Positions 13,200-36,586 of a DNA stretch of 64,000 nucleotides are shown here, in pieces (position 1 is the first letter of the stretch; every line of letters starts with the position of its first letter). Location: assembly GCA_029253585.1 (NCBI GenBank), contig JAQWZF010000002.1, positions 1-64,000 on the forward strand. The letters run 5' to 3'. A program made the translations under genes and the position numbers. Source of the DNA: Gammaproteobacteria bacterium. GTDB taxonomy: Bacteria; Pseudomonadota; Gammaproteobacteria; Pseudomonadales; Pseudohongiellaceae. The notes under the pieces were generated by a model. The model was not told the origin of the DNA and ran no database searches. It saw only the letters and a list, made by a program, of their open reading frames with translations.

Positions 13200-13422
13200 T
13201 TATTCAGTCGTCTTAATGCCGCGTCCTTTCTCTTTCGCAGAGGGTCGCAGCACTGTGGCCTCGGTGATCGCTCGCTGCGGTTCTCTTCTCGAGAGACCGC
13301 CGCCTCGTTTTGGATAGACCTCAGTCATCACCGAGTTGTTGATTCGGAGCTCGATAATGGCGAAAAACGGTGCCCATGGCAGCGAGCAAGTAAAGTAACA
13401 CGCCTAGGCAGAACCTTGCCAT
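13200..13422 (-). pseudogene. small single-span membrane protein, frameshifted
   Basis: On the minus strand ATG at 13422 begins MARFCLGVLLYLLAAMGTVF, a clear hydrophobic segment. That frame ends after 33 codons. Removing one base from the T5 run (13363-13367 on the plus strand) joins it to a second open frame, IIELRINNSVMTEVYPKRGG onward, which ends in TAA at 13200-13202. The repaired product has about 73 residues: one membrane span and a basic tail rich in Lys and Arg. I do not recognise the family. The region is 223 bases, which is 3n+1 and agrees with one extra base. It could be a real frameshift, a sequencing error, or chance. Confidence 0.45.
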
Positions 13423-13542
13423 AATCCGTTGCCTGGCCTGCTGTGGGCTGCTAGGGGCTGAGTAGGAAGTTGATGCGGCGGCCGGAAATTATTTCGGCGA
13501 ATATCCAGAGTCGTGCCGGGCTGTTAAGAGGTTTTGAGATAC

Positions 13543-13557
13543 CCTATCCTATCCTAT
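13543..13557 (+). repeat. (CCTAT)x3 tandem repeat in a possible promoter spacer
   Basis: Three perfect CCTAT units lie between TTGAGA (13534-13539) and TATGCT (13555-13560), upstream of the ABC transporter genes. Gain or loss of a unit would change the -35/-10 spacing by five bases. The promoter itself is weak, with a 15-base spacer. Confidence 0.45.
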
Positions 13558-13602
13558 GCTTGTGTTGTAATTGGCTGTGACAGTGTTCATACTCATTCGC
13601 CC

Positions 13603-14541
13603 ATGAAAAGTGACGAAAATCCAATACTACGCATCACCGCTTTGAATAAATTTTATTCCGGCGGCTTTCAAGCGCTCAAAGATATCAATCTGCAGATCGA
13701 GAGAGGCGAGATACTCGCCTTACTCGGTCCCAATGGCGCGGGTAAGACGACATTGATCTCTGTGGTCTGCGGCATAGTAAACCCTAGCTCCGGCTCGGTG
13801 AGTGTCGACGGTTTCGACATCATCAAAGACTTTCGCAAGACTCGGTCTATCATCGGCCTGGTCCCGCAGGAACTCACAACCGATTCGTTTGAAACTGTCT
13901 TCAATACGGTCTCATTCAGTCGTGGGCTGTTCGGCAAACCGCCCAGTCCGAGTCACATCGAGAAGGTCCTGCGTTCGCTGTCTCTATGGGACAAGAAAGA
14001 CAACATGATCATGACGCTGTCCGGCGGCATGAAGCGCCGGGTGTTAATCGCCAAGGCGCTCTCACACGAACCCACGGTATTATTTCTCGATGAGCCCACC
14101 GCCGGCGTAGATGTCTCCCTTCGAAAAGACATGTGGCAGATCGTGCGCGAACTCAAAGAAGAGGGCGTTACAATAATTCTTACCACGCATTACATCGAAG
14201 AGGCGGAAGAGATCGCCGATAGGGTTGGAGTCATCAACAATGGCGAGATCATCTTGATCGAAGAAAAAGACAAGCTGATGGAGAAGCTTGGTAAGAAGCA
14301 GTTGATTCTTGACCTGCGCGATAGTCTCGCGTCGGTGCCGGATAGTATGGCCGACTACAATCTAGAGCTTAGTGAAGACGGCATGCAACTGACCTATACC
14401 TTCAATACCCAGAGGGATCGTACAGGCATCACCGCATTGATCGATGATCTCAAGTTAGCCGATATTGCATTTCGTGATCTGAATACAACGCAGAGTTCGC
14501 TGGAAGATATTTTCGTTAATCTGGTCGAGGAGTCGTCATGA
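13603..14541 (+). CDS. ABC transporter ATP-binding protein, YadG-like
   Basis: This is a 312-residue ABC ATPase for an ABC-2 type exporter. It has Walker [10 protein letters not shown] (near residue 45), signature LSGGMKRR (near 140), Walker B VLFLDEPT and the switch His in TTHYIEEAE. After about residue 225 there is a C-terminal regulatory extension typical of DrrA/YadG-type subunits. The ATG at 13603 is preferred; an in-frame TTG at 13534 would add 23 residues without resemblance to the family. The stop overlaps the start of the permease (ATGA), so the two are translationally coupled. The substrate is unknown. Confidence 0.9.
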
Positions 14542-15299
14542 ATATTTATGGCATTATGGCGATCTACAAATTTGAGATGGCGCGCACCAGACGCACTCTG
14601 GTGCAGAGTATCGTGGCACCAGTAATTACAACGTCCCTTTATTTTATCGTCTTCGGTGCCGCCATCGGGTCGCGCATCGATCAGGTTGACGGCATTAGCT
14701 ATGGTGCTTTCATCGTGCCAGGTCTGATTATGCTAAACCTGCTGACCAATAGTATCTCGAATGCATCCTTTGGAATCTACTTTCCAAAGTTTGTCGGCAC
14801 CGTCTACGAGATGCTGTCCGCCCCAGTGTCTACCCTCGAAGTAATATTAGGCTATGTGGGTGCAGCCGCCTCTAAGGCTGTCATACTCGGAATAATCATT
14901 CTGATTACAGCGGGTTTCTTTATCGACCTACAGATAGCTCACCCGGTAATGATGATGGTGTTCATTCTGCTTACCGCACTGTCGTTTAGCCTGTTTGGGT
15001 TTATCCTGGGTATCTGGGCAGATAACTTTGAGAAGTTGTCGGTAGTGCCTACGCTGCTCGTCACGCCGTTGGTGTTTCTGGGTGGCAGTTTCTATTCCAC
15101 CGACATGCTGCCGGAACCCTGGCAGACGGTCTCCCATTTTAATCCGGTGTTGTATTTGGTAAGTGGCTTGCGCTGGAGTTTCTATGAGATCTCTGAGGTT
15201 AGCGTGATGCTGTCTCTGGCGAGCATTCTTATCTTTATGTTTTCCTGCCTGGCAGTGGTCTACTATCTATTCAAGACCGGCTATAAATTGCGCAGTTAG
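14538..15299 (+). CDS. ABC-2 type permease, YadH-like
   Basis: This is a 253-residue inner-membrane permease with six predicted spans, starting after the amphipathic stretch [18 protein letters not shown]. The conserved ABC-2 segment [17 protein letters not shown] near residue 180 precedes [13 protein letters not shown]. It overlaps the ATPase gene by four bases and forms an exporter with it, similar in architecture to E. coli YadGH. The substrate cannot be told. Its last 33 bases also lie under the tail of a MORN-repeat remnant on the opposite strand. Confidence 0.9.
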
Positions 15300-15596
15300 T
15301 TGAGGCGCTGGCCGCCACGAAATTCCATCGCCTGCGTATTGCCCCTGGCCACTAATCTGATCGTTCTGGAAGCCGCCTGTAAAGCGGTTACCGTTCACAA
15401 AGTAGAAAGTGCCCTGGCCGTTCATCTGGTCATTCTGCCATTGCCTCTCATAGCGCTCACCATTGGCCCATTCTTTCTCGCCGCGGCCATGCTGCTTACC
15501 ATCGCGCCACTGCCCCGTATAAGTATTGCCGTTGGTCCAATCGAAAGTGCCCTGACCGTGGCGGTTGTCATTACTAAACTGGCCTTCGTACTGCCA
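15267..15596 (-). pseudogene. MORN-repeat protein fragment
   Basis: The minus frame running down from 15596 encodes tandem MORN repeats of the form Y-x-G-x-(F/W)-x-(N/D)-x-x-x-x-G-x-G: YEGQFSNDNRHGQGTF, YTGQWRDGKQHGRGEKEW, YERQWQNDQMNGQGTF, then FTGGFQNDQISGQGQY. It begins abruptly after an in-frame TAA (15597-15599). It has no plausible start codon and runs on to TAG at 15267, antisense to the end of the ABC permease. MORN proteins are often membrane-associated and may bind lipids. This is best read as the C-terminal remnant of a degraded gene. The plus strand here is open by reflection of the repeats and is not a gene. Confidence 0.7.
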
Positions 15597-15880
15597 TTAG
15601 TGACAGGGATACCTTGCCGCTATTCCATTTGTAGTGCTTAGACGACGCAGTACTGTGCTTGGTTACAATTATATTTTCGAGAGGGAGTGCAGTGGAAACC
15701 GATGCCGGTCTCATCTTGGTAGATACAGCTGCCGGGTTGGGAGGCGAAAGCGTCCTCTAAGAGATGTCTATCTGCAATCGTGAGAGTATGCTGTCAATGG
15801 CACTCTGTCGGATTGGAGGTCGATGATTTTTAGCGGCGCTAGTTGCTTTAGATAGGCTTAGGCTGGAGTTGAAATCGCAA

Positions 15881-16558
15881 ATGATCAACATGGATTTTTC
15901 AAAGAGAGTTGTTGTAGATGGCAACACCCAGAATAGGGTGGCCAGCCCCAAGCCAGGTGTATGGCGCAAGCCGTTGGCTCGAGAAGACGCCGAGCGTGGA
16001 CATGCAACCAGCTTGGTGCGCTATGACCCTGGCGCGAAGTTTTCATCCCATGGCCATCCGTTAGGCGAAGAAATACTGGTGCTATCTGGCACCTTCTCCG
16101 ATGAGAGTGGTGACTATGGTGCCGGCACCTATTTCAGAAACCCGGAGGGCTTTACTCACTCTCCCTTCAGCGAGCAAGGCTGCGAGATACTCGTTAAGCT
16201 GCATCAGTTTTCAGCAAACGATGATAGCCACGTCTGCATCGATTTTAAAACCGCTGATTGGTCGCCGGGGCAGGGAAACCTTAAGGTGTTGCCACTACAC
16301 CAGTTTGAATCATAATCTGTCGCGCTCGTGTATTGGCCAAAGGGTGAAAAGTTTCACCGACATGTGCATCCGGGTGGTGAGGAAATCTATGTTATCAGTG
16401 GTGAGTTCATCGATGAGCATGGACGCTATCCTGCCGCTACCTGGATACGCAGCTCGCATATGAGTATGCTCACACCTTATGTCGAAGAAGAGACGCTATT
16501 CTGGGTGAAGGTTGGGCACCTGCCTGTGCAGGAACCAGGGACAGGCGAACCGAAATGA
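15881..16558 (+). pseudogene. double-cupin (ChrR C-terminal-like) protein, split by TAA
   Basis: One continuous frame of 226 codons is interrupted only by TAA at 16313-16315. The first half has cupin motifs YDPGAKFSSHGHPLGEEILV and a GTYFRNPEG turn. The second half repeats the fold with YWPKGEKFHRHVHPGGEEIY. Both keep the His-x-His...Glu metal pattern. The layout matches the duplicated cupin region of ChrR-type proteins, but the N-terminal zinc anti-sigma domain is absent and no sigma factor gene is adjacent. CAA to TAA (Gln) would explain the stop by one transition. ATG at 15881 is chosen; a TTG at 15869 is an alternative. The halves might still be made separately. Confidence 0.75.
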
Positions 16559-16613
16559 TCTGACGGGGAAGCAGGCTCTCTGGCCGGCCGTGGTATTTGC
16601 AGTAGGACGCCAA

Positions 16614-16928
16614 CTACTGCTTGAACCAGAACTCAATCTCACAGGTATCTTCACGAAATTCGGCGCTGTGTTCTTTCTCGGCGGGAACGTGGTACCACTG
16701 TCCGGTGGGAATGGTCACTGTTTGTCCATCCATGGTAAGCAATAGTTCCCACTTGGTTATCACGCCGACGTTGTCGGTGTCGTGACGGTGAGGTTCGATA
16801 ATGGTGCCGGCGGGGTAGGTGGCGAATAGCACATCACAATTGTGAGCCTGCAATTTTCTCGCATCAAACTGGCCACTGAATTTGGGTAGATCGCAGATCT
16901 GCTCGGGATAGTAGTTGGACAGCGCCAT
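16614..16928 (-). CDS. small single-domain cupin
   Basis: This 104-residue cytoplasmic protein forms one cupin barrel. Motif 1 is PAGTIIEPHRHDTDNVGVI, with two His as likely metal ligands, and motif 2 is PTGQWYHVPAEKEHSAEF. The ATG at 16928 follows CGGAGAA at good spacing; the longer open frame upstream lacks a ribosome site. Convergent with the double-cupin pseudogene, 55 bases away. The function is unknown; such proteins may bind small ligands or isomerise sugars. Confidence 0.8.
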   Translation of the reverse strand: MALSNYYPEQICDLPKFSGQFDARKLQAHNCDVLFATYPAGTIIEPHRHDTDNVGVITKWELLLTMDGQTVTIPTGQWYHVPAEKEHSAEFREDTCEIEFWFKQ

Positions 16929-17231
16929 TGGGATTCTCCGTAGCTTAGAAGTTAAGTGTGCCTGAGAAGTGACGGTACTCCGAGGCAGTTGGGATAAATA
17001 TAGCAGCTTTAAGGAAGTAAAGTAGCGCATCAATATAGACAGCCGCACTGTTAAAAACGGAGCTGCAGGAAAGTTGAAGAAGAGTTAAGATCAGCGCCAT
17101 AGCCTTGACTTTAGAGGGCTGTGAGTCAGATCGGAGGGTGTTTTGCTTAGTCGAAATGGTAATAATATGTGCCATGGCGTTCAATACCCTAATCCAATGT
17201 TGTACTCTTAGTGCGTTAACATAGATAATTT

Positions 17232-17258
17232 TTGACGTGGCTGTTGTCGCTCTATTTT
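17232..17258 (+). promoter_or_regulatory. possible promoter of the amine-oxidase cluster
   Basis: TTGACG (17232-17237) and TATTTT (17253-17258) are 15 bases apart, shorter than ideal. They are the best candidate in the 401-base gap 16929-17329, which otherwise shows no gene or strong hairpin. An antisense 79-codon open stretch there has no ribosome site and no family resemblance. Confidence 0.3.
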
Positions 17259-17329
17259 AACCCCGTTGAGGTCTGCTATGCAGGCTGGTTGGGTAAAGCT
17301 CGAAATCGATTTAATCTCCGGAGGTAGGC

Positions 17330-18898
17330 GTGTCTAAACAAGTTACACGTAGAGAGTTTCTAAATTTATTGAGTGCCGCTGGCGGAACCGCCGCAGCACT
17401 GAAGGCGGGTTCTGCACTGGGCCTGCTTCCGCACACGGCACAGGCCGCTAGTATGGATCTGTTGGCAGCCAATGCAGCCAGCCGCAAAGTGGCGATTTTG
17501 GGAGCGGGCATCTCGGGTCTGACCGTTGCCTACGAGTTAAGCAAGGTGGGCTATGAATGCACTATCCTAGAATCTTCATATCGACCCGGTGGCAGAATAT
17601 TTACCGTTCGCCATGGTGACCTGATAGATGAGATCGGTAATCGACACTACTGTGAGTTCGACGATGAGCCCCATATGTATTTCAACGCAGGCGCCGCGCG
17701 AATTCCGAGTACGCACCGAAACTTGCTCGCCTACTGTAAAGAACTCAACATCGATCTAGAGATCTTCATTAACGAGAACAAGACTTCTTATGTGCAGGAT
17801 CCTGCGCTGCTCGGTGGAAAGCCTATCCGCAACATCGACTATACAACCCACTCGCGCGGCTTTCTCGCGGAGTTATTGGCAAAGTCCCTCGATGCTGGCG
17901 AGATGGATCAGCCGTTCACCGATCAGGAGGCCGAAACTCTGATGGGCATGGTGCGCTCCTTCGGTAGCCTGGACGAAGATAACCTCTATAAGGGAAGCTT
18001 TCGTGCTGGTTATGCCGCCGGTGGATTTCTCGAGCACGGCGTGCAGAAAGACATCATCGCCTTTCGTGATCTGTTGCAGACGCAGATGGGCCGGCAACTG
18101 CTGAGCGCGAACGAAGGCGATACAGGCCCGATTCTACTTCAGGCCGCAGGTGGCATGGACAAGATAACCGAGGGCTTTACCAAGCATGTGGGTCATCAGA
18201 TTCGATACCGCTCCATGGTAAATTCTGTCGAAGTGAAAGAGGATGGTGTTGATATCTCCTACGATCAGGATGGTTCGCGGCATCTGTTACAGGCCGATTT
18301 CTGCTTCAACTGCATACCTAGCCATCTGATGACCGGTATTACCAATAATTTCCCAATCCAGTACGTGGATGCTCTTAAATATATTCGTCGCGGCAATGCC
18401 TACAAGGCAGCCTTCCAGGCGAAGGAGCGTTTTTGGGAGAAGGACGATATCTACGGCGGCATAAGCTGGATGAACAATCCAAGCAACCAGATCTGGTACC
18501 CGAGCTCCGGCATACATAAAGAGAAGGGCATACTGCTCGCCGCTTACGATTTCGGTGACGGTTCATTCCACACTTCCATGACCCATGAAGAGCGTATCGA
18601 GGCGCATCTGAGCGATGGCGAGAAGATTCACCCGAATTACCGTAATCAGGTCGAGAAGCCAATTACGGTTGCATGGCATCGTATGAATCACATGCTCGGC
18701 TGCTCTGCGCGCTGGCAACGTGATCGCAGTGGTTGGACCCACGAGGAAGAAGAGTTGTATCACGCCCTCCAGCAACCGGTGAACGGCCGGCACTACATGA
18801 TAGGAGATCAAGTCAGCATGCACTCAGCCTGGCAGGAGAGTGCGGTCATGTCGGCGCAGTGGGCGATGACAGATATGGACAGGCGTCTTCGGGCTTAG
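17330..18898 (+). CDS. Tat-exported flavin amine oxidase / dehydrogenase
   Basis: This 522-residue FAD enzyme belongs to the monoamine/L-amino-acid oxidase superfamily. It starts with a twin-arginine signal (RREFLNLL at 7-14, cleavage near HTAQAA), so it is folded before export to the periplasm. The dinucleotide motif GAGISGLTVAYEL and the following RPGGRI bind FAD. The C-terminal flavin motif appears as GDQVSMHSAWQESAVMSAQW. GTG at 17330 follows GGAGGT. A cytochrome c4 gene comes 82 bases later, so electrons may go to cytochrome c rather than O2, as known for the related nicotine enzyme NicA2 and its partner CycN. The substrate is unknown. Confidence 0.88.
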   Translation: MSKQVTRREFLNLLSAAGGTAAALKAGSALGLLPHTAQAASMDLLAANAASRKVAILGAGISGLTVAYELSKVGYECTILESSYRPGGRIFTVRHGDLIDEIGNRHYCEFDDEPHMYFNAGAARIPSTHRNLLAYCKELNIDLEIFINENKTSYVQDPALLGGKPIRNIDYTTHSRGFLAELLAKSLDAGEMDQPFTDQEAETLMGMVRSFGSLDEDNLYKGSFRAGYAAGGFLEHGVQKDIIAFRDLLQTQMGRQLLSANEGDTGPILLQAAGGMDKITEGFTKHVGHQIRYRSMVNSVEVKEDGVDISYDQDGSRHLLQADFCFNCIPSHLMTGITNNFPIQYVDALKYIRRGNAYKAAFQAKERFWEKDDIYGGISWMNNPSNQIWYPSSGIHKEKGILLAAYDFGDGSFHTSMTHEERIEAHLSDGEKIHPNYRNQVEKPITVAWHRMNHMLGCSARWQRDRSGWTHEEEELYHALQQPVNGRHYMIGDQVSMHSAWQESAVMSAQWAMTDMDRRLRA

Positions 18899-18980
18899 GT
18901 TCTAAGATTCGCTTGTTTGCCTAGCGTCTGGGTGCTATTTATTCAGGGGCTTTTCGCCCTTAAGTTGGAGAAGTAAGAGT

Positions 18981-19604
18981 ATGTTGAAGACCTTTTTGTT
19001 AGCTTGTAGCCTCTGCGTGATGTGTGTGGGAGGAGTTAACGCGGCAGAAACAGAGCGAGAGCCTTTCGATGATCGTTACTGCACAACCTGTCATGGCGCG
19101 GATGGCCGAGGCAACGAGGGCGTGCATGCTCCCAGACTTGCTGGTATGGAGCCTTGGTACCTGAGGCGACAGTTGGAGAATTTTCGCGCCGATATGCGTG
19201 GTGTGCATCCGCAAGACATAGAGGGCATAGCGATGCGCCCGATGGCGACTAAGCTCAGCGATGAGTCGATAGACGACATTATCGAATGGGTGGGCAGCTG
19301 GGAGTATGTGCCTGCAGAAGCGACAATAGAGGGCGGCGACCCGGCCCGCGGTCGTGGTCTGTATGGTGGCTGTGCGGTGTGTCATGGAGACAGTGCCCAG
19401 GGGAACGAAAGCCTTGGTGCGCCGGCCCTAGCCGGCCAGAATGACTGGTACCTGGTCACCCAATTAAAGAATTTCTTGGCAGGTTATCGGGGTGCTCACC
19501 CCGGTGATACTTACGGAGCGCAGATGCGCACCATGGTAACTACCCTGCGCAATGAGGCTGGCGTTCTCAATGTTGTGAGTTACATCAACACGCTTTCCCG
19601 TTAG
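18981..19604 (+). CDS. di-haem cytochrome c4-type protein
   Basis: This is a 207-residue periplasmic electron carrier with a Sec signal (about 1-22). Two c-type haem motifs, CTTCH (C34, C37, H38) and CAVCH (C131, C134, H135), each sit in a cytochrome c domain with the repeat LAGxxxWYLxxQLxNFxxxxRGxHP. The distal Met is probably in MRPMATKL and its partner MRTMVTTL. This duplicated architecture is typical of cytochrome c4. GGAGAAG precedes the start. Placed right behind the flavoenzyme, it is the natural candidate for its electron acceptor. Confidence 0.9.
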   Translation: MLKTFLLACSLCVMCVGGVNAAETEREPFDDRYCTTCHGADGRGNEGVHAPRLAGMEPWYLRRQLENFRADMRGVHPQDIEGIAMRPMATKLSDESIDDIIEWVGSWEYVPAEATIEGGDPARGRGLYGGCAVCHGDSAQGNESLGAPALAGQNDWYLVTQLKNFLAGYRGAHPGDTYGAQMRTMVTTLRNEAGVLNVVSYINTLSR

Positions 19605-19637
19605 ACTAGGTCAAAACGACCATCAGGAGCCGACAAC

Positions 19638-21026: not shown

Positions 21027-21065
21027 TTTATTTTTAGTTGTAACTGAACAGGGGAACACTACATC

Positions 21066-21554
21066 ATGATCAAACTTAAGAAGCCATTCACCGCAATTTC
21101 TATCGCCGCGTCATTAGCGCTCGTTATGGGCGTTGCCGCGGTCTCAAACGCGGCAGAAATTGTGCGAACCGGGGAAGGCAGAAACTTCTATAACAATATT
21201 ATGATTCCAGTCGGTGCCGAGACGCTCTACTTGAGTGGCTCCGGCGCGAGCCAGCAAGCCGATGGCACTTGGGGCGACATGGAGCAGCAGACTATCGATA
21301 CCTTCAGTCGTTTTCAGGAGACCCTCGAATCGCAAGGCTGGTCACTGGAAGACATCGTACAGGTTCGTGCCTTCGCCGTATCCGGTCCCGATGGCGAGCT
21401 AGACTTCGCCGGCTTCAATAGCGGTTACCAACAATTCTTTGGCAGTGATAAGAACCCCATGAAGCCGGTTCGTTCCTTCGTACAGATCGCAGGCCTGGTC
21501 GTCGATGGCTGGCTCATCGAGATCGAGATTCGTGCGGCGAGAATGCCCGACTAA
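21066..21554 (+). CDS. RidA-family protein with signal peptide
   Basis: This 162-residue protein of the YjgF/RidA family has a Sec signal (about 1-30, ending VSNAAE), whereas most RidA proteins are cytosolic. RidA hydrolyses reactive enamines/imines made by PLP or flavin enzymes. The family arginine (in PVRSFVQIAGL, near residue 139) and the following Glu in LIEIEIRAA are present, so the catalytic site looks intact. It follows the symporter by 39 bases and is followed by a strong terminator. Export matches a role in clearing imines made by the Tat-exported amine oxidase upstream. Confidence 0.85.
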   Translation: MIKLKKPFTAISIAASLALVMGVAAVSNAAEIVRTGEGRNFYNNIMIPVGAETLYLSGSGASQQADGTWGDMEQQTIDTFSRFQETLESQGWSLEDIVQVRAFAVSGPDGELDFAGFNSGYQQFFGSDKNPMKPVRSFVQIAGLVVDGWLIEIEIRAARMPD

Positions 21555-21583
21555 AAAAGTACTTGGCAGTTCATAGGTTCTGG

Positions 21584-21624
21584 AAGGCCGGTACGATGTG
21601 AAAACATCGTACCGGCCTTTTTTA
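21584..21624 (+). terminator. Rho-independent terminator after the RidA gene
   Basis: A perfect 16-base-pair stem (21584-21599 with 21604-21619) closed by a GAAA tetraloop is followed by a T-run. It ends the 17330-21554 transcription unit, so the amidase and propeller genes downstream need their own promoter or read-through. Confidence 0.93.
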
Positions 21625-21753
21625 TGATCGGAGAATCGTACTGTTATCCAGAGTGGCATTCCAAGTAGATCGATTTGACGGTGGTCTTCGGTCTGTCGTT
21701 CACTTACACTTTCTCCACCACTATCGTTAACCTTCATTACAAGGCTGTGCATC

Positions 21754-23628: not shown

Positions 23629-23676
23629 ATATAAATAAGCCTTACCGTTCTGAGAACTAAACCAAGAGGTATTACG

Positions 23677-25100: not shown

Positions 25101-26516
25101 TTAGGGCAATACCAACGAGATGGCGATGTTGTAGTCGCCCGTCTCATCCGGAGCGAAACTTGTTACGCCCAGCCAATAGGTGCCGGGCGGCAGGGTGGTT
25201 TCTATAACGGAGTTGGTGCCGCTGCCGTTGTCGTCGTTCTGCAGGGAAAGACTTCCCAGAGATTGATCTGAATTCACTGCTACGAGTAATAGACTGGTAT
25301 CGAATGCCGAGGAGCTGAGGTCGATCCTCACCTTGGAACTAACCACGGTTTCTATCTGTACCAGGTCAAGAAACTTCTCGTTGAATTTAAAATCCGCTAA
25401 TCCGAGGCTGCCGCTTATACTCGGATTCGGATTTGCCAGCACATCTACTCCATATATCGAAGTGTATGACTCGAATGAAGAAGAGGGATTGTTGGTGTTC
25501 GATATTATTGAAACATCGTAGTTGCCCGTCGCATTGCCGCTAGTGCTACTGACCCCAAGCCAATAGGTTCCGGCCTGAATGCTTTCATTGATTCTTGCGT
25601 TGTTGCCGCTACCCGAATTGTCATCCGTGAAAGTGGAGCCAGCTACCGCGGCCTTTGTCGCGGAGACTCTGGCCAGATACAAGAAGGGGTCGAAGGCCTG
25701 TGACTTTAACTGAATATCGACAGTAGAGTCATTCTCGAAGGTATATTGATACAGGTCGAGAGAACCGCTATCCAGCTGATTGTCACCACCGCTAAGTGAG
25801 CCGCTTAGGTTGCGGCTGTTGTTCTGCCCGGATAGTTTAGAGTTCTCAGGGGCGACTAGACTGACCCCATAGATGTTCGCGACCGTCGCCTGCACCGCTT
25901 CACCGCCACCGCAGATAGAGGCTATCCCCGCGATGTCATCAGCCTGTAGGGTGTTCGTGTCGGATACAAAGGCCCGCATCATTGCGTCGCTGGCCGTCGA
26001 ATGTTTCAGGCCTAAGGGATGACCCAGCTCGTGTAATGCAACGTGTTCGAATTCAAAGGTGCCGTCTAGTCGTCGCGGTCCGCTGTAGATATCCCACTTC
26101 TCCGCGCTGTTGAACACGATATCCGCATCGGTGATTGAGAAGCCTCCCGTACATTGCTGATTTAGTTATCTACCCGCAGTCAGCGTTACCGCCAGGGTGT
26201 TTTCCTGGAACTCGGTGCCACACACGTCTGCCCCGAAGTCGATACCCGTCGCGCCGTCAACGAATTGGCCGGCGCCGCGATCGATACAGGGATCTAGATA
26301 GTCGTTAACGGCAATAAATTCGAAGTTGCTACCCTCGCTCCATGCGTTCATCGCGCGAATAAAGGCGGCGTTCCTGGTGCCGCCGGTGGGAGAGCTGCCG
26401 CTAATGCCTACGTGAAAGACCGCCCGTGAGCTTTCCCAGAAATTCCCCGACGTCTCGAAGGCATTGCTGGAATGAAGGGGAAGTAGAAATACGAAAAGCA
26501 AGGAGACAACTCTCAA
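25101..26516 (-). pseudogene. matrixin-type metalloprotease with PPC domains, split by TAA
   Basis: A single minus-strand frame of 472 codons is broken only by TAA at 26166-26168. Before it come a signal peptide (about 1-19) and the start of the protease fold. After it, the frame continues to the zinc site HELGHPLGLKH and Met-turn DAMMRA of the matrixin/metzincin family. Two pre-peptidase C-terminal (PPC) domains follow (about 265-365 and 375-471), each with D(D/N)xGSGxNxxI and GTYWLGV. As written, the product stops before the catalytic site. CAA to TAA is a one-step explanation. The start is TTG at 26516. It follows the hypothetical gene 26528-27265 in one operon. Confidence 0.78.
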
Positions 26517-26527
26517 GGCTGAAACTT

Positions 26528-27265
26528 CTAGTTCTCTATTAGATCGGTGATGCGCGACTTGAATTCCTCTACAGTCAGCGCACGCTGAATCATGATTGGA
26601 CTGGACTCGGTCATGACGCCGGCAGCTATATCACTGTTACCCTCGACTACCGACAGCGGCCTCTTGATGCTGCGCGGTATGGATGAGACCGGCTCTACAT
26701 CGGTAACCGGCTGATTCCCTGCGGTTCGCATTCGACGTATGCCATCCTCTTCTACGATAATGAAGTGTCCCTGAGACCAGCCGATCAGGGGATTGATAAG
26801 ATCCCGAGACATGGATTCGACGAAATAGATTCCCTGCTCCGCTATCTCGGGAATGCGCATGCCGCTGACCTGCACTATCTGCCCGTTAAAAGCGCCGCCC
26901 ATGAATTTCAGTTCTACACTGTCTCCCGAGTAGTCGCCCTTGATGATGTCGTCGATTCGGAAGGTGACATAGGTGCTGATAATCCCGCTACTAGTCTCTT
27001 GCCGGGTCTCGCTATTGATTACCTCTCCCTCGAATACGAATTCGGCATCGGCGGCAACCTTGTCGATATCCATGGCGAGAATCGTGGTCGCATACGCAGT
27101 GTTCGCGGCTATAGCAGCGAATAGGCACAGAAGACATGTAGCCGCTGCTATGACCTGTTTCGTGTGGATTGCAAAAGAGGCTGAAAGAAAACCTGTAAGA
27201 AGCGTTGCCGTGCTATTTCTATCGGAGATCTCAATAGAGAGAGTCGGATCGGTCGCGTAGTTCAT
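26528..27265 (-). CDS. exported protein of unknown function
   Basis: This product has 245 residues from the ATG at 27265, which is chosen because CAGGA lies nine bases upstream. A hydrophobic export segment lies unusually deep, at about 36-58 (ending NTAYA), after a polar leader, so the true start may be later. The mature part begins TTILAMDIDKVAADAEFVFEGEV, a pattern seen in secreted proteins of unknown function beside matrixins, and has VTFRIDDIIKGDYSGDSVELKF with beta-sandwich character. It ends 11 bases before the matrixin start. Co-secretion with the protease, perhaps as inhibitor or partner, is inference. Confidence 0.65.
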   Translation of the reverse strand: MNYATDPTLSIEISDRNSTATLLTGFLSASFAIHTKQVIAAATCLLCLFAAIAANTAYATTILAMDIDKVAADAEFVFEGEVINSETRQETSSGIISTYVTFRIDDIIKGDYSGDSVELKFMGGAFNGQIVQVSGMRIPEIAEQGIYFVESMSRDLINPLIGWSQGHFIIVEEDGIRRMRTAGNQPVTDVEPVSSIPRSIKRPLSVVEGNSDIAAGVMTESSPIMIQRALTVEEFKSRITDLIEN

Positions 27266-27424: not shown

Positions 27425-27562
27425 CCCCTATTCGCCTACGGGCCTGGAGGTTTATTCACTTTACTCTATCAATAACGCATTAGATCACTTTTTGCTGACA
27501 GGGAGGGAAACTTCCGCCTACAGAGGCGCTAAAATAGGGGCTTAGAAGGTCGTAAATAGGGG
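27425..27562. repeat. three copies of AATAGGGG upstream of the SulP gene
   Basis: CCCCTATT at 27425-27432 is the inverse of AATAGGGG. Two direct copies of AAATAGGGG lie at 27532-27540 and 27554-27562, exactly 22 bases (about two helical turns) apart. They stand in the 372-base gap 27266-27637 between divergent genes, which holds nothing else I can name. This may be an operator. Confidence 0.4.
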
Positions 27563-27637
27563 TTCACGCTGGCATCGCGAGCTGGCGGGTAGTATCCTCA
27601 GGTCTTAGTTCTGTTAACAAAACAATAAGACTCTACG

Positions 27638-29815
27638 ATGCAGTCCAGCTATATCGCCAATATTATCTCTGGCGGTCTAATTGCCTTAGTCAACATCTCG
27701 GTGGCCGTGTCGGTTGCGGCGTTGCTATTCGCGCAGACTGATCAGCGTCTTATGGTGCCGGGGATCGCTATATTGCTAATCGGTACCCTGGTGACAGGGC
27801 TGGGCGGCACTCGATTTAGTGGTTACAAGGCCGTTGTCTGATCGCTGCGCAATGGCTTGATACCGGCGTTCGCGGTAATCGTTAGCAGCATCTACGTTAG
27901 CTTTGGTTCCGAGTATTCGATCGGGGCGGAAGCCACGATTATTGTCGCTATAATGGCGACGACGACGTTTGCCGGCTTGTTCCTGCTTCTGCTTGGCCGC
28001 TTAAAGCTGGGTAACCTGATGCGTTATATCCCCTATCCGGTAACGGGTGGTTTCTTCGCCGGTATCGGCTACATCTTCATACAGGGTGGCCTAACCGTAG
28101 CCAGCGGTCGCGACGCTGACCTTGGCTCGATTGCCGACCCTCAATTTATCCAACTCGTTACGCCGGCAGTCGTGCTGGCTCTCTGTCTAATCATCGGAAA
28201 GGTGTCTAGAGACAACCGGCTTTCCGTGCCCGGCATTCTGTTGCTCTCGGTACTATTGTACTATGGAGTATTGGCGATAGCAGGCATCAGCCGAGATGAG
28301 GCTGCCGCCAACGGACTGCTGCCGGTCACTGATACCGCTGGAACCCTCGGTCCGATTTTTCATTTCGAATATCTACAAGAAGTTAAATGGCTGGCTATCT
28401 GGGAGCAACTCGGCGGTATCGTCGTTGTTGCATTGCTTTGTTCCATAATGCTGCTGCTCGATGTTTCCGGCATCGAGCTAATCGCCAAGAAAGATTTAAA
28501 TCCAGATCATGAATTAGAGGTCATGGGCTACACCAATGTCGTGAATGGAATGCTAGGCGGTTTTCCTGGCGTACATGACGCATCGGATACGGCGCTGGCA
28601 GATCGCCTGGGCGGCAAAGACAGGCTGATGGTTATCGTTAATGCGATTCTCGTTGCAGCAGCAATTCTGGCGGGCACCGAGTTCATGGAGTTGGTGCCGA
28701 CATTCCTCTTGGGGGGATTGCTGATCTATGTTGGTTTGGAATTTCTGATCGATTGGCTCTGGAAGGCGCGTGAAGAACTGCCTCTTTCCGATTATGTAGT
28801 AGTCATTCTGATCCTCATCGTAATTATCTTCTCTGATATCCTGCAGGGCGTCACCTTTGGTTTCTTCGTGGCCATTATTTTGTTTGTGGTGAACTATTCG
28901 CAGCTAAGCGTTATCAAGATCGAGACTAACGGCAGCGATCATGCAAGTAATGTCGATCGCGACCTGGAAACGCGGGAGCTACTCAACAAAGAAGGGCATC
29001 GTGTGTTGATCATGGTGCTGCAAGGATTTATCTTCTTCGGCACTGCAGATAAGTTGATCAGCGCCATACGCAACCGCATTATGGAAGTGGAGTATAGTAA
29101 GTTTGATTTTCTCGTCCTCGATTTTCATCACGTGAGTCAATTGGATACATCGGCGATCGTAACCTTCTCGAAGCTTGCGCAACTCAGTGATCGTGTTGGC
29201 TTTCACATCATAATTAGTAGCGCAGATCAGAAGTCCATAAAGCAATTGGTTAAGCACGACTTCTTCACCTTCGGTGAGCAGCGCCTGGAGCGACACTACA
29301 AGGAGCAGTTGGATACGGCGGTAGACCGGTTCGAGAGACGCATACTTCGAGATTTGAATCTGAATGCAGAAGAGCAGAATCTTGAATTGCACGACGTGCT
29401 CGGTCGCATCGCCCATGAAGAAGCCGACGTCAAACTGCTATCTGATTTCTTCGTCATCGAAAAGAGAAGGACAAGTGAGTACCTGTTCAATGAGGGTGAC
29501 AGAGGCGAGAGCCTCTACTTTGTTGGCTCGGGTACCGTCGTAGTTGTGCTTAAGGTGCAAGACCAGGCAGAGCGTATACTACGTAAATACAAGGCAGGGG
29601 CTATTCTCGGAGAGATGGCTATCTATACCGGTGAGAACCGAACCGCTTCTGTGCGCATCGAGGACGATGCGGTTCTGTTTAGGTTGGACAAGGATAAGCT
29701 GGAGGAAATGTCACGCAGATTTCCAGCGTCTACAGCTGCGCTGCATACCTACATCGTTAAGGTCTTATCTGAAAGGTTGGGCAGAGCGAATAGAAATCTG
29801 AGTCGCTATATCTAG
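27638..29815 (+). pseudogene. SulP anion transporter with STAS and cyclic-nucleotide-binding domains, split by TGA
   Basis: One frame of 726 codons is cut by TGA at 27839-27841, after the first two membrane spans. Beyond it, the frame continues through the remaining SulP core (YPVTGGFFAGIGY and the NVVNGMLGGFPGVHDASDTA region). A STAS domain follows at about 450-560, then a cNMP-binding domain at about 605-720 with GAILGEMAIYTGENRTASV. The family moves sulfate, bicarbonate or dicarboxylates. TGG to TGA or CGA to TGA would each explain the stop. Internal initiation at TTG 27857 would give a protein lacking the first spans. The STAS-CNB fusion suggests control by a cyclic nucleotide. Confidence 0.78.
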
Positions 29816-29821
29816 CGAGCC

Positions 29822-30214
29822 TTACTCGACCGGGCGCAATACTACCGGCACCATCTCACTACCTTGAAACCAGCTGGCATCGATGCGCAGCAATTTTTCG
29901 CCTGCCTCATCGAAACGCAGGGTCCCGGTAAATTCAACGTTTAGCCTGCGAATAATGACGGTGAGGGAGAGCCCCCTGAGGCTCACTCTGTCTGCCGGCA
30001 TTCCATAGATTCCCAAGCCATCGCTAATCATCGAGGCGGAATAATCGCCATCTGCCATAGTGATGTTGAAGATTAAGCCTAGATCATCTTCGCCTATAAC
30101 CAGTGGTCCACCCCAGGAGCCGACCAGGGGAGTCGCGCTTATATCCTGTGCCGAAGCGGAAGGAAGAAAAATCAGTAGTGCCAATAGGGCTGCGCTGCTT
30201 AATGTGTATTTCAT
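29822..30214 (-). CDS. small secreted protein of unknown function
   Basis: This 130-residue protein has a Sec signal peptide (MKYTLSSAALLALLIFLPSASAQ). The mature part contains LVGSWGGPLVI and alternating hydrophobic stretches ending FDEAGEKLLRIDASWFQG, which suggest a small beta-barrel or lipocalin-like fold. I do not recognise the family precisely. Start ATG 30214 places the signal at the N-terminus; an upstream frame extension adds 12 residues and is less likely. It lies 48 bases downstream of the RlmK-like gene on the same strand. Confidence 0.6.
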   Translation of the reverse strand: MKYTLSSAALLALLIFLPSASAQDISATPLVGSWGGPLVIGEDDLGLIFNITMADGDYSASMISDGLGIYGMPADRVSLRGLSLTVIIRRLNVEFTGTLRFDEAGEKLLRIDASWFQGSEMVPVVLRPVE

Positions 30215-30262
30215 AGGCCGGATGTTAAGCCGCGCACTGTTCCAGCGCAAGCCGATAGGGCG

Positions 30263-31234
30263 TTATGAATGCCGGATGAGCCATGTTTGGTGAATCTTCT
30301 TCTGCCGTTGGAAATCTTTGCCGAGGCTGGCTGTCGTGTAATCTTGTACCTTATATTTTCTGAGCACCTCAGCGTCCAGCTTGAAGCTGAGCTTGTTGGT
30401 CGAGAATATGAGCAGGCCGTCTCGGTCAAGTTTTTTCATGGCCTTGCGAATCAGTGAAAGATGATCTCTCTGGATGTCTAGCACGTTGCTGGTGCTCTTG
30501 GAGTTAGAGAACGTCGGTGGGTCCAGAAAGATAAGATCGAATTTCTCGTACTTGGAATCCAGGTATTCGATGCAGTCGGCTTTCTTCAGGCGGTGACTCT
30601 TGCCTCCCATCTTATTGAGTAGGTAGTTTTTTCTAGCCCAGTCAAGGTAGGTGTTCGAGAGATCGATACTGAGCGTCGAGGACGCGCCGCCTAGCGCGGC
30701 TTGTACGCTGGCAGTTGCGGTGTAGCAGAAGAGATTGAGGAAGCGTTTTCCCGAGGCATTCTCTCGAATGAATTGACGAATCGGGCGATGATCCAGGAAT
30801 AAGCCCGTATCCAGGTAGTCTTCCAGATTTATCCAGAAGCTGGCGGGCCCCTCATTAACAGTAAAGAATGAGTGGGTCTGGTCTTGCGCTTCATATTGTT
30901 GCTTCCCGCGTTGGCGCTCTCTGGATTTGAGCACGATGTGTTCAGGCTCAATGCCCAGAACTTCCTGCACCGCAGCGATGGCCTGTTCACGCCGCGCCGC
31001 AACCTTCGTCTCATCGATGGAGGCAGGCGCCTGATATTCCGCCATCTGCACCCGTTTGCCGTAAATATCGATGGCAAAGGCATATTCAGGCAGGTCTCGA
31101 TCATACAGCCGATAGCACTCGATATTCTGCTGTCGTGCCCATTTTCCCAGTACGCGCAGGTTCTTGCGCAGGCGATTGCATAGCATCGTGGCAGCTTCGT
31201 TCGCTGCGGGATCTGTTTCTGTTTCTGAGTTCAT
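30263..31234 (-). CDS. stand-alone RlmK-type 23S rRNA (guanine-N7) methyltransferase
   Basis: The 323-residue product aligns by eye with the C-terminal half of E. coli RlmKL: NRLRKNLRVLGKWARQQNIECYRLYD near the start, then YLDTGLFLDHR and the SAM motif NLFCYTATASVQAALGGA. After these come a catalytic-type LDPPTFSNSK and VLDIQRDH. The RlmK half makes m7G2069 in 23S rRNA. The N-terminal RlmL half (THUMP plus the m2G2445 methylase) is absent from this locus. ATG 31234 is chosen; an in-frame GTG at 31321 adds 29 residues without family likeness. RlmL could be encoded elsewhere. Confidence 0.82.
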   Translation of the reverse strand: MNSETETDPAANEAATMLCNRLRKNLRVLGKWARQQNIECYRLYDRDLPEYAFAIDIYGKRVQMAEYQAPASIDETKVAARREQAIAAVQEVLGIEPEHIVLKSRERQRGKQQYEAQDQTHSFFTVNEGPASFWINLEDYLDTGLFLDHRPIRQFIRENASGKRFLNLFCYTATASVQAALGGASSTLSIDLSNTYLDWARKNYLLNKMGGKSHRLKKADCIEYLDSKYEKFDLIFLDPPTFSNSKSTSNVLDIQRDHLSLIRKAMKKLDRDGLLIFSTNKLSFKLDAEVLRKYKVQDYTTASLGKDFQRQKKIHQTWLIRHS

Positions 31235-31359
31235 GGCGAGATTGGAATGACCGTTGGTTGCGCTGGATATAGCCTTGATTGTTTGCCTTAACAGCTTGGC
31301 GTGGCAGAACGTAAGGCTCACATGATACGCGAGATAACCAGATACAGAGAATAAAATTT

Positions 31360-32181
31360 ATGGGACAAGAAGAATTAGAACAGATGACCTAGGTTTACAA
31401 CATGCTTGTAACCTATCTGGTCAATTATAGCTTCCAAATATTCGGCGCGGTGGTAGCGCTGATTTTAGGCGTTTTCGTCGGTAGACGACTAAGCAATCTG
31501 GTGCTTGCCCTGTGTGCAAAAAAATCACTGGAGATAACCCTTAGCCGATTCTTTGCCAGCTCTGCACGCATCGCAATAATCTCCTTCTCGGTGCTGATCG
31601 CTTTGCCGAAGCTGGGGATACAGGTTACGCCTTTCTTGGCGGCAGTTGGCGCTCTAGGCTTGGGAGCAGGCTTAGCCGTTCAGGGTCTTCTGTCAAACTA
31701 TGGAGCGGGGCTCAGCATCATCTTTACCCGTACCTTCGTGGTTGGCGACACGGTTCGCATTAAGGGGGTGTTCGGAGTGGTTAAGGAGGTTCATCTGGCC
31801 TTTACCCTACTTACCAATGAAGACGAGGAACTTATCATCATCCCTAACAAGCATATAGTGGGGGAGATTCTGCATAATTCCCATACAGATACCATTCTTG
31901 AGCTGTCTGTTGGTGTTGTCTATGACAGCGATACCGATGCCGCGATGAAGGCAATAGAGGCGAGGCTCGCCAACGTCGATGGGCTGAGTCAGCAGCGGAG
32001 CATTCAGATCGGCATTGAGGAATTTGGTGACAGCGCGATCAGTATCGCTGTGCGTGGCTGGGTGAAAACCCAAGATTTTCATCAGATTCGGTTTGCTGCG
32101 AATCAGGCGATCAAAGATGCGCTGACCGAAGCTAATATTTCGATTCCCTTTCCACAGCGCAAAGTGCGTATGCTGTCCTAG
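31360..32181 (+). pseudogene. MscS-family mechanosensitive channel, stop at codon 11
   Basis: ATG at 31360 begins MGQEELEQMT, then TAG at 31390-31392. The same frame continues VYNMLVTYLVNYSFQIFG, with three membrane spans and the pore-lining GLGAGLAVQGLLSNYGAG helix. The beta domain follows with FVVGDTVRIKGVFGVVKEV and then the C-terminal alpha/beta region. CAG to TAG (Gln) explains the stop. Starting at ATG 31402 would give 259 residues that lose only 14, so the channel might still be made. The family opens at high membrane tension to release solutes. It is called a pseudogene with that reservation. Confidence 0.7.
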
Positions 32182-32214
32182 CCTTAAGGATTTTGCTTTA
32201 GATTTTTTTGATTA

Positions 32215-34519
32215 CTAGTTTTTTACCATCATCAAGTTTATGAGGCCGGGTAGTTTTTCAGTGTCATAGGGTTTCGAGATGCAGGTTATATGGTCTGATT
32301 CATCAATTTGTCTTTTAGGCTTTGCTGAGTGTAGCCAGTCGCTAATAGAATAGGTGTCGCCGGCTTCTCTTGTAGAACGCGTTTGGCCATGTCGATTCCA
32401 TTCATCCCGCCGGGCATCATTATGTCTGAGAATACCAAGTCGATGTTTGGGTTTTTGTTGAAACGCTCCAGCCCGGAGTTGCCATCGTTTGCCACAATAA
32501 CGGTGAAGCCTGCTTCCAACAGCAGTTGCGTCGCGACGTCCCTGACGCCGGAATCATCTTCTACCAATAGCACAGCCCCACTGTAGTGAACGTCGCCCTT
32601 GCTTCCCGCAAGTCTAGTTTGATGTGCCGGCGAATGCTCAATGGCCACTGGCAGATACAGAGTGAAGCTTGTCCACTCACCTTGCCGGCTCTTTACCGAA
32701 ATATTACCGCCGGATTGTTGCAGGAAACCAAACGCGGTGCTGAGACCGAAACCCGAACCCTCGCCCATCGCCTTTGTAGTAAAAAAAGGGTCGAAAACCT
32801 TGCCCAAAAAATATCCGCGGGGATGCCCATGCCATTGTCGCTAACAGTGATCTCGATATAGTCGCGCTCGATATTGCTCATCGACATGCCATTTTCAGAC
32901 TCATGCAACCTGACGCGGCGTGGAGCTATCGTTAGCTCTCCGCCGCTGGGCATCGCATCTTTCGCATTGACGCAGAGGTTAACAATGACGTTCTCAAACT
33001 ATGTCTTGTCGATCTTTGCCGAAGTGGCGTCTTTGTTCAGATTTAAAACCAGATCCACGTCCTCGCCTATAATGCCGCGAACAAACGACTTCATGTCGCC
33101 AAGAATCGAATTGATGTCTTCTGCTTTGCTTAGCAGCGCCTGTTCTCGTGAGAAGCTCAACAGTCTCTTGTTTAAGTCTGCGCCGTTCTTTGCCGCTTTA
33201 ACTAGTTTGTCTATTATTTCAGTTTCGTCTACTCGTTCATCGTCCGCCAGGCGACGTTTCAAGAATTGCAGGTTTCCCATGATCACGGTGAGTAGATTAT
33301 TAAAATCGTGTGCCACGCCGCCAGTAATGCGACCGATAACCTCCATCTTCTGCAATTGCTGGAGTTTCGATTCCATCTCTAGCTGGTTAGTCATATCGAT
33401 GAAACTGACTACGGCCCCGATGAGCTTGCTATCCTCGATGATAGGCCTGCAGGAAAATTGCACCGGTATAATCAGTTCGTCTTTGCCGCAGAAAACACCC
33501 GTCGCACTCTGCACGGACTGACCCTGAAGCAGGCAGAGATTTATTGACTTGCGCGTTGTGGCTTCTCTGCCAGCTTGTGTGCTGGTTCGGCAGATGATGC
33601 TGAGTGCGTTCTCACCAATAATTTCGGACTCTCGCAATTTTAATAGCTGCAAGGCCATCGCATTTACGAAGCTAATATTGCCTACACTGTTAATACCAAA
33701 AATACCTTCGCCTACCGCATCGAGTAGTAATAATTTTTCCTTGGCGGCCATCGCTAACTTGTTGTCTGTTGCCTGTTTCTCGAGCAGCAAGGCTTCTTCG
33801 TGTTTGATACGTGTAATCAGTTCTTCCTCGCGCAGCTTGAGCGTTTCTTCATCTGCGCTAAGCTTCTTGTCTAGCTCACTATTGCGAAGCCGCAGGCGAA
33901 TAGTTCGATTTAAATCTCTGCCGATTCGCATTGCCATGAAATAACAGAAAGCGAGAACGACAATTAACGCTCCGGCAATTTGCAGGTCTTGCGTAGACCC
34001 CTTGTAGAGTGAGAAGGCAACGTGCAGTCCAACCGCAGGTATGGCAAAGCTCAAGAATAGCTTACGGTTTACAGACAGAACGACGGTCGCGTTTGCCAGC
34101 ATCAGACAGAACCAGATGAGAGTCGTTCCCTTCGGTGCAACCACTAATTCTTCGACGCTGACCGGGGCGAGGACTCAGGTAGAACCCCAGATAAAACCTG
34201 AGGCTACTACCATCGCGAGTAGGAAGCGTTCTCTATAGATGCTGTTTTCGGTCGTCGAGGCGATGGAGATCTAGGAGCGACCGAGTAGGTAAAAGAAGCC
34301 GCTGCTAAGCAGAAGCACGGCAATCCATATATAGGTGCCAAGATAGATCTGTTCGGCGAAGAGCAGAGCGAATAGGACGAGCATGGTGCCAGAGGCTGCA
34401 TTTACACCTAGGATCAGCCGTACTTGTCGAAACACAGAGTCGATCTGTTCGCGATGGACCGCTTCGCCCTGGGGGTCGGGATCGACAGGCGTTCTTGAGT
34501 GCTCCAGTATGCTAGTCAT
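32215..34519 (-). pseudogene. hybrid sensor histidine kinase, five lesions
   Basis: The minus strand encodes in order two or more membrane segments, a coiled coil, a PAS domain (GEGIFGINSVGNISFVNAMA), a HisKA H-box (GGVAHDFNNLLTVIMGNL), an HATPase and a receiver (VLLVEDDSGVRDVA, DLVFSDIMMPG, ISKPYD). The reading frame is broken five times. TAG at 34271-34273 and TGA at 34175-34177 lie in the sensor part, and TAG at 32999-33001 lies where the family has Gln before FENVIVNLCVNAKDAM. There is a two-base gain near the A6 run at 32806-32811, and a one-base loss near 32310 before the KPY end. The total length (3n+1) agrees with these shifts. No partner response regulator is adjacent. Confidence 0.85.
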
Positions 34520-34709
34520 AACATCGCTCTCCTACGAATTTGAAAATCGTTGAATAAAGCGCAGCAGTGGTGGGGCTGTGGTGGTTTTAGGCGTTCAACG
34601 CCACTCCCCAGCACTCTAGAATATCACTATAGAGCGGGGGTGAAAGTAGGATTCGGGGCGACAAGGTATTTGTTGTATTGGTCAGAGAGGCTACCCGATG
34701 TGCTACAGA

Positions 34710-34742
34710 TCCCAACTGCCAGCGCAGATGCTGTAGTTGGGA
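34710..34742. terminator. hairpin downstream of the 34774-35802 hydrolase
   Basis: TCCCAACT pairs with AGTTGGGA, with an inner CAGC/GCTG stem and a small bulge. It lies about 32 bases past the hydrolase stop in the direction of transcription but has no T-tract. A terminator or mRNA-stabilising hairpin is possible. Confidence 0.35.
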
Positions 34743-34773
34743 CCTAATAACTTGGGCTGGGCTCAGTGACTGA

Positions 34774-35802
34774 CTATTTCCAGTCGCTTGCTGCCTCGTT
34801 CGGATCTGACCTCAAAAAGCGAATCAGGTCGGTATGGAACAGATCGGGTATCTCGATCTGTGGCGCATGGCCCACATCCGGGTAGAGCAATATGGCTGAG
34901 TTCTGTAACTCGTTTGCCACATTGTGTGCCAGTGTCGGAAAATCATCGACCAATCCATCTTCTTTGCCGCCTATAACAAGTGCCTTGGTCTCGATATGCT
35001 GCCAATCATAGACAACCGGGTCATCGTATAGCATCTGGCCCTGCAGTCTGCGTACCTGCGCCAGACGTGGCCATTCGCCACTCTTAGTCTGTCCAAATTG
35101 GCGACGGACGAATTCCAGATGCTCTGGTGGCCATCGCAGCGGAAAGTAGCGTTGATGGCCGCGCAGTATCGATTGGTAGGTAGTAGTGCCACCGCCGGCA
35201 AAAGGGTCGCTCCAGGGTCGGCTCTGGCGCTGATCGGTAAGACCAATCTGGTTTACCATAACAACGTGGGTTGTTATATCTGGGTACATCATGGCGAAGC
35301 GACTTACTGTCATCCCACCCATTGAGTGCCCAACGATCGCAACTTCATCGACCTCTAGTTCGTCCAATAGCGCCTTCATATTGGCCGCGACAAAGTTGAA
35401 GCTGTAGGGAAGAATAGGCTTGGTTGATTTGCCAAAGCCTATTCTGTCTACGGCTAGCACGCGAAAGCCTGAGGCAGCCAGGGCTTTGATCGTCGGCGTA
35501 TAGGCCTCGGAGTAGAAATTCATACCATGCTGAATTAGGACAGTCTGGCCGTTAGCACGCCCGCTAGGAGGCACGTCCATATACGCCATGCGGATATCTT
35601 GCTGGAAACGATTAAGCTCCAGAAAGTGCACCGGATAGGGATAAGGTATTTCTTCGAAGTTAGCGGAAACGGCACCCCAATGCGCCGGTGGCTCGGCCGG
35701 AGCCACTTCAGGCCATTCGCTTTGGGCCATGACTATGGTCGATGTAAGACCAAGCAGGAGTGCACTAATGCTTAGGACTACTCGTTGTTTTAAATAGGAC
35801 AT
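34774..35802 (-). CDS. secreted alpha/beta hydrolase
   Basis: A 342-residue alpha/beta-fold hydrolase with a Sec signal (about 1-26, ending STIVMAQ). The nucleophile elbow is VGHSMGGM (Ser near 160), the oxyanion region is LIQHGMNFYSEAY, the acid lies in the GGKEDGLVDDF turn, and the catalytic His in YPDVGHAPQIE. The order is that of esterases and haloperoxidase-like hydrolases. The substrate is unknown. It is one of several exported hydrolases in the window (compare 36798-37727 and 63074-63973). Confidence 0.85.
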   Translation of the reverse strand: MSYLKQRVVLSISALLLGLTSTIVMAQSEWPEVAPAEPPAHWGAVSANFEEIPYPYPVHFLELNRFQQDIRMAYMDVPPSGRANGQTVLIQHGMNFYSEAYTPTIKALAASGFRVLAVDRIGFGKSTKPILPYSFNFVAANMKALLDELEVDEVAIVGHSMGGMTVSRFAMMYPDITTHVVMVNQIGLTDQRQSRPWSDPFAGGGTTTYQSILRGHQRYFPLRWPPEHLEFVRRQFGQTKSGEWPRLAQVRRLQGQMLYDDPVVYDWQHIETKALVIGGKEDGLVDDFPTLAHNVANELQNSAILLYPDVGHAPQIEIPDLFHTDLIRFLRSDPNEAASDWK

Positions 35803-36022
35803 ATGCAGCTTACCTAGGTTATTGAATTGATTATTTTTGTGTGCTGATTATGGTCGAGCGACAGAGTATTCCAGATTGTGGCGATGTTTCAAAGTAGTTC
35901 TTTGTTGCCGGGCGATAATTTTAGTGCTTAAGCCATGAGGGGTGGCTGCTGCAGGGGTGTGAGGAAGGCTCGCTAGCCTGCCGATCACCGAACTGGAACC
36001 GGCAGGCACAGTGGCTGTATAG

Positions 36023-36586
36023 CTAGTCTTGCTTGATGCAGCGGGTGTCGCCGTTCTGCATATTCGCAATAGTCTCGCGATCGATAGGAAGAGGTGCACA
36101 GCCATGGCCGGTTCCGCAAATCAGGTGCCATTCGGGTGGGGCAAGCATGTGACAGCCGAAGCAGTTGCCACCGAAGCGGTTTACGATTTCGGTAGTTCCA
36201 CGTACGACAATCTCCGAACCTTCCTCGGAAACGGTGAGCTCAAAAAATTCCCAGTCGTTGGTGGTCGCGTTTCAGCCTTCCTGATGCTTGATTATTACCT
36301 CTGTGGGTATCAATGAGACCAGCGATCCGGCTGGATATTCTCCGCCGGTTTCAGAATTCGCTATAGCAACAGTTGCCTCGATTTTGCCCAGCATATTGTC
36401 GACGAAGAACGCTTCGGTCGATGATCTGGTCATCTCGGTGAGGCACTTAAACAAGGCTTCGGTTACATCTAGCTGCTTGTCAGGATCTGGTAAATTGTTC
36501 TGCGAACTGCTTTTACTTATGGCAGTTAGCGAAAGGCAGAGTAATAGAGCCATCTTGATGAGTTTTTGTGACCCGAGGAATTTCAT
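36023..36586 (-). pseudogene. secreted mono-haem cytochrome (P460-like layout), split by TGA
   Basis: ATG at 36586 begins a signal peptide MKFLGSQKLIKMALLLCLSL. The frame runs 104 codons to TGA at 36272-36274, then continues unbroken for 82 codons to TAG at 36023. The second part holds EWEFF-like NDWEFFELTVS, the haem motif CFGCH, and a further pair of cysteines before CIKQD. Frames upstream and downstream of the stop clearly belong to one protein. TGG to TGA (Trp) would explain the stop. As written, the product ends before the haem site and would be inactive. The fold resembles cytochrome P460-type proteins but this is not certain. Confidence 0.78.

Follow-up and report, generated by a model that had tools for sequence, protein, structure and literature searches.

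The 64,000-nucleotide stretch analysed here (the window) comprises bases 1–64000 of a 197-kb contig (contig 14) in a Pseudohongiellaceae genome of 3.35 Mb (42 contigs, 94% complete), and five of its genes, encoding a double-cupin protein, a matrixin, a SulP transporter, an MscS-type mechanosensitive channel and a cytochrome-like protein, are each interrupted by one in-frame stop codon. From sequence comparison with related genomes, we conclude with a probability of roughly 80% that its broken genes, which also include a hybrid histidine kinase, are true pseudogenes, or nearly so, in a lineage with seemingly weakened purifying selection. Overall, we read them as pseudogenes of an ordinary kind within an accessory stretch, made modestly interesting by the repeated loss of SulP and MscS.

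Five private stop codons in otherwise open genes

All five stops listed in the initial annotation were verified at their positions (Table 1), each inside an otherwise full-length open frame. The relatives used for comparison are, by their titles, metagenome-assembled genomes (MAGs), under names such as uncultured Pseudomonadales, Gammaproteobacteria, SAR86 cluster and Pseudohongiella sp.; several of them appear in more than one alignment row, and counts of rows are to be read accordingly. The sister genome, uncultured Pseudomonadales isolate PACB-20200414-m62 (G058; the window's own genome is G000), is collinear with the window at 93–95% identity over two aligned stretches, while the next nearest relative (G020, approximately 90–94% identity) was taken to be the G066 assembly (locus L041), with which its contig numbers and positions match. 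The sister copies of all five genes are open, and the stops are private to the window's genome, with a sense codon in every relative's row aligned at those codons. The residue is Glu in 15 of 15 rows for the cupin gene, Cys in 14 of 14 rows for the matrixin and in 27 of 27 (about 20 genomes) for SulP, and Trp in the sister genome (two rows, one genome) for the cytochrome-like gene, where G020 has the same base. At the MscS stop, 21 rows from 18 distinct genomes give 11 Glu, 4 Asp, 1 Gln and 2 Ala.

The initial annotation had attributed nearly all of the stops to Gln-to-stop or Trp-to-stop transitions, which these residues contradict: with Glu, Cys, Cys, mostly Glu and Trp in the relatives, only one of the five is a plain transition, four of the six base differences implied against the sister genome are transversions, and the guessed ancestral codons were wrong at four of the five stops. 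Nor is a transition-biased spectrum special to this lineage, as derived changes comprise 66% transitions and 37% C>T plus G>A in the window lineage (n=1995), close to the 69% and 37% of the sister lineage (n=1059). The argument that a changed genetic code is unlikely did hold up; no recoding rule accounts for TAA at both Glu and Cys positions and TGA at both Cys and Trp positions.

The hybrid kinase, for which five lesions had been counted, does carry three in-frame stops and two frame changes relative to an open 772-codon frame in G060. It is absent at the sister locus, and the G020 copy, which reaches a contig end, has approximately 200 bases missing internally. A small membrane protein described as having one extra T could not be located by comparison with the sister genome, against which single extra T's at 18954 and 27535 fall outside the tested genes.

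Erosion at invariant residues

Were these proteins still in production, their genes should gather changes away from the residues common to all relatives. Eight intact genes of the region show exactly this in the window lineage: of 35 derived changes, 3 lie at invariant columns, against an expectation of 14.4 (p=4e-5). For the four broken genes pooled in this test (cupin, matrixin, SulP and MscS, the cytochrome-like gene being outside it), the count was 16 of 59 with 19.8 expected (p=0.34), compared with 4 of 29 and 9.5 expected for the same genes in the sister genome (p=0.03). Stops excluded, 16 of 561 invariant residues have changed in the four broken genes versus 3 of 1102 in the eight intact ones, totals from which two further intact genes aligned in only 5 rows apiece (abhyd and g36798) were excluded; the matrixin gene has five non-stop changes at residues that are otherwise invariant. 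This pattern supports loss of selection, one of the causes initially offered for the stops, and disfavours the other two, read-through and sequence error.

Sequence error would place the stops among assembly or base-calling faults in a probably metagenome-assembled genome. The MAG titles of the relatives and the division of this genome into many contigs are in keeping with such faults, as are raised nonsynonymous counts in other window genes, for example an 856-aa gene at 37757–40324 with 16 such changes in the window lineage versus 1. The avoidance of invariant residues in the intact genes, however, speaks against random error, and other assemblies too have broken copies of SulP, MscS and the cytochrome-like gene, with the lesions elsewhere; we regard error as a quite improbable source of the five stops.

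Several observations weigh against pseudogene decay. The stops themselves are known from assembled sequence alone. In the window, abhyd and g36798 have 5 of 297 and 6 of 266 invariant-column changes, respectively, versus 0 and 1 in the sister genome, and with these two counted in, broken and intact genes would be less sharply distinguished. Compared directly in the window lineage, broken and intact genes differ only at p=0.035 and their nonsynonymous/synonymous counts only at p=0.038, and those counts are also raised in the intact genes relative to the sister genome (p=0.0007). Taken alone, SulP does not look clearly neutral (6 of 22 changes at invariant sites, expectation about 9.5), and MscS has just two invariant-site changes and an ATG at 31402, the fourth codon past its stop. 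The ratio of nonsynonymous to synonymous substitution rates (dN/dS) relative to the sister genome, a comparison that the initial annotation had proposed for each side of the stops, is low on both sides in SulP and matrixin, contrary to decay, as it is downstream of the MscS stop; the values before and after the stop are 0.50 and 0.09 in the cupin gene and 0.57 and 0.14 in the cytochrome-like gene. Given the modest direct contrast between broken and intact genes, we consider the evidence for decay good, short of overwhelming.

Along the window, nonsynonymous/synonymous ratios of derived counts were 0.26 in the left flank, 0.32 in the region and 0.45 in the right flank for the window lineage, and 0.10, 0.23 and 0.19 for the sister, the left-flank figure being blurred by near-identity between the sister genome and G020 there. 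At window positions 2251–8250 these two relatives differ by 0–2.4% per 250 bases (mostly below 1%), and the window is approximately 2–21% different from both. The near-identity is a sign of recent recombination between the G058 and G020 lineages.

Read-through, selenocysteine and imported tracts

The single stops, with the rest of each frame open, would also suit read-through by leakiness or a suppressor tRNA, the proteins still being made. Against this stand the residue in the relatives, which varies between stops even for one and the same stop codon, and the erosion at invariant sites. A search for suppressor tRNAs, as suggested at the outset, found no suppressor anticodon in the 31 readable hits of 34; the three hits outside this count are two at contig ends without an ARAGORN call and C32:282, and tRNA-Sec, found separately, is the one stop-reading tRNA. 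We therefore hold read-through to be very unlikely.

Because the genome has selA, selB and tRNA-Sec, and the SulP TGA stands at a Cys that every aligned relative keeps, this codon was examined as a candidate for selenocysteine. The fold downstream of the TGA was no better than those of shuffled sequences (z −0.55 and −0.46). In the passages of PMC13188914 that set out a bacterial selenocysteine insertion sequence (bSECIS) model, the apical loop has 3–9 bases with a G within its first two places and the upper stem 4–16 pairs. The minimum-energy fold, to which this comparison is limited, lacks such a hairpin, having an apical loop of 8 bases without G at the first two places and a single closing pair; with that lone pair opened, the loop would begin with G and be 12 bases long. 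Moreover, none of the 27 rows has TGA at this codon, the invariant Pro two residues downstream is altered, SulP is broken in seven other genomes, and selenocysteine is inapplicable to the genes with TAA and TAG. On the fold, the relatives without TGA and the local erosion, we rejected a SulP selenoprotein, the probability of which is minimal.

Decay is compatible with a further explanation, in which the lesions were imported on recombinant tracts from another lineage. Identity to the relatives is a mosaic along the window, and in the cupin gene synonymous divergence (dS) from the sister genome jumps from 0.04 before the stop to 0.65 after it, with the edge near the stop (window 16300–16556). 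A clear edge at the stop was nevertheless found in the cupin gene only, and there was no donor, the cupin tract being nearest to G020 and the sister genome (86%) among the nine loci compared. Import thus appears improbable.

Recurrent loss in other genomes

Pseudogene formation at some of these genes is not confined to the window's genome. SulP is broken in seven further genomes at differing sites (G020, G035, G003, G009, G014, G077 and G023), the G023 copy by an internal deletion that fuses the N- and C-terminal ends in a short open frame (L137 9973–10437). MscS is broken in six further genomes: G020, G035, G009 and G002, plus G003, called by judgement on a C-terminus out of register, and G067, a remnant. 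The matrixin and YVTN genes each showed one frameshift (in G035 and G013, respectively), and wherever the genes lying between SulP and MscS are present, the lesion survey of the relatives showed neither stop nor frameshift in them. A separate lesion count gave 5 of 23 for SulP, 2 of 18 for MscS and 2 of 3 for the cytochrome-like gene, with 1 of 12 for YVTN, 0 of 13 for matrixin and 0 of 87 for FAO, cyt18981, DctA, RidA, amidase and rlmI together. The small gene between SulP and MscS was flagged in 1 of 22 relatives in one survey, where its N-terminus was unaligned, and the gene at 26531 in 5 of 18, solely through an unaligned N-terminus.

Among 52 genes testable in both the window's genome and G020, the broken ones are the same three in both, namely SulP, MscS and the cytochrome-like gene, and the lesions differ between the genomes, G020 having a frameshift of its own in the cytochrome-like gene, a three-gene coincidence with a probability of 4.5e-5 if random. 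This comparison dropped one start-site difference in both genomes and one stop within the last codons in G020; the cupin and matrixin genes are outside it, as the G020 contigs end there.

Joint loss of SulP with MscS gave Fisher p-values of 0.017 (G003 MscS counted as intact) and 0.0034 (counted as broken) over 23 genomes, and 0.015 with absence counted as loss over 29 genomes, some of them incomplete, all three tests treating genomes as independent. A tree-aware test had 4 independent pairs, too few, with a mean of 2.8 changing the same way and 0 the opposite way (median p=0.25); counting absence as loss gave 5 pairs, a mean of 2.4 the same way and 0 opposite (median p=0.5). As the Fisher tests ignore kinship and the tree-aware test does not reach significance, we regard recurrent loss of the two genes across genomes as well supported, and their joint loss as suggestive and not proven on the tree. 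That SulP and MscS form one module, repeatedly switched off in lineages of this genus by independent small lesions with the intervening genes untouched, is a tentative idea with the odds against it.

The window's genome has a second, distant MscS-family gene (G000:C32:97317–98081) with one TGA, and a similarly scoring gene of the sister genome is without it.

Concentration of stops at 13.2–36.9 kb

Fifty-five sister genes of at least 100 aa were testable against the window, and 5 of the 19 at 13.2–36.9 kb have a stop in the window, compared with none of the other 36 (hypergeometric p=0.003). Two more window rows were flagged for frame changes relative to the sister genome, one of them a start-site difference at 18922. 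In the other, the RNase-R-like gene at 353–2923, the window frame is full length (Pfam) and the sister frame is the short one. Across 20 paired control stretches, flags fell on 24 of 278 genes in the window's genome and on 17 of 283 in the sister genome, frameshifts and start-site differences included. Classified by inspection, 6 of those 24 are stop-only and 4 more combine a stop with a frameshift, so that stop-only genes amount to 5 of 19 in the interval and 6 of 278 in the controls (Fisher p=2e-4). Because the interval was picked after the stops were seen, these p-values flatter the enrichment.

Features of the interval

The coordinates are collected in Table 1. The methyltransferase between SulP and MscS is one that we take to be rlmI-like. 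The open first piece of the cytochrome-like gene had no Pfam match. On the minus strand at 15300–15640, candidate MORN-like repeats were seen by eye, and the plus-strand frame was without a Pfam match.

Table 1. Broken genes of the window and the two intact genes between SulP and MscS
Feature	Coordinates	Strand	Lesion or state	Basis of assignment
Double-cupin gene	15869..16555	+	TAA 16313-16315, between the two halves	Cupin_7 (Pfam, sister copy)
Matrixin gene (Peptidase_M10)	25104..26516	-	TAA 26166-26168	Pfam, sister copy
SulP transporter with STAS and cyclic-nucleotide-binding domains	27638..29812	+	TGA 27839-27841	Pfam, sister copy
Small gene between SulP and MscS	29825..30250	-	Intact; no stop or frameshift	
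S-adenosylmethionine (SAM)-dependent methyltransferase between SulP and MscS	30266..31321	-	Intact; 0/11 relatives broken	Pfam
MscS-type mechanosensitive channel	31360..32178	+	TAG 31390-31392, codon 11	Pfam, sister copy
Hybrid histidine kinase pseudogene (PAS, HisKA, HATPase, receiver)	32286..34530	-	Multiple	Pfam of pieces
Cytochrome-like gene	36026..36655	-	TGA 36272-36274	CxxCH motif by eye

Interpretation

Under pseudogene decay, the genes may have become dispensable, perhaps through an altered osmotic or ionic setting, after which single mutations would have stopped them one at a time; the kinase would be older and more degraded than the others. MscS may persist by way of the internal ATG downstream of its stop, and a single-domain protein may remain of the cupin. 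Inactivation of bacterial genes by nonsense mutations under relaxed selection is a general concept, and the window resembles it in its private stops, open orthologues, lost constraint at invariant residues and several affected genes in one stretch, but differs in that SulP and MscS have been hit repeatedly in separate genomes with the intervening genes kept. Recurrent, parallel gene loss upon niche change is likewise a general concept in bacteria, matched here by different lesions in the same genes of several genomes, although for joint loss of SulP with MscS the tree offers too few independent pairs. A literature search on pseudogenes in Pseudohongiellaceae found no paper joining all of its topics. 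The available passages of PMC10219603 report a mechanosensitive channel as commoner in brackish genomes and do not concern this bacterial group, and a link to salinity is only a lead.

For genes with a single in-frame stop, the main lesson is that relatives should be compared before such stops are put down to recoding or to a particular mutation spectrum. Should joint loss of SulP and MscS be borne out in more genomes, it would suggest that a mechanosensitive channel and an anion transporter bearing a cyclic-nucleotide-binding domain have a physiological role in common.

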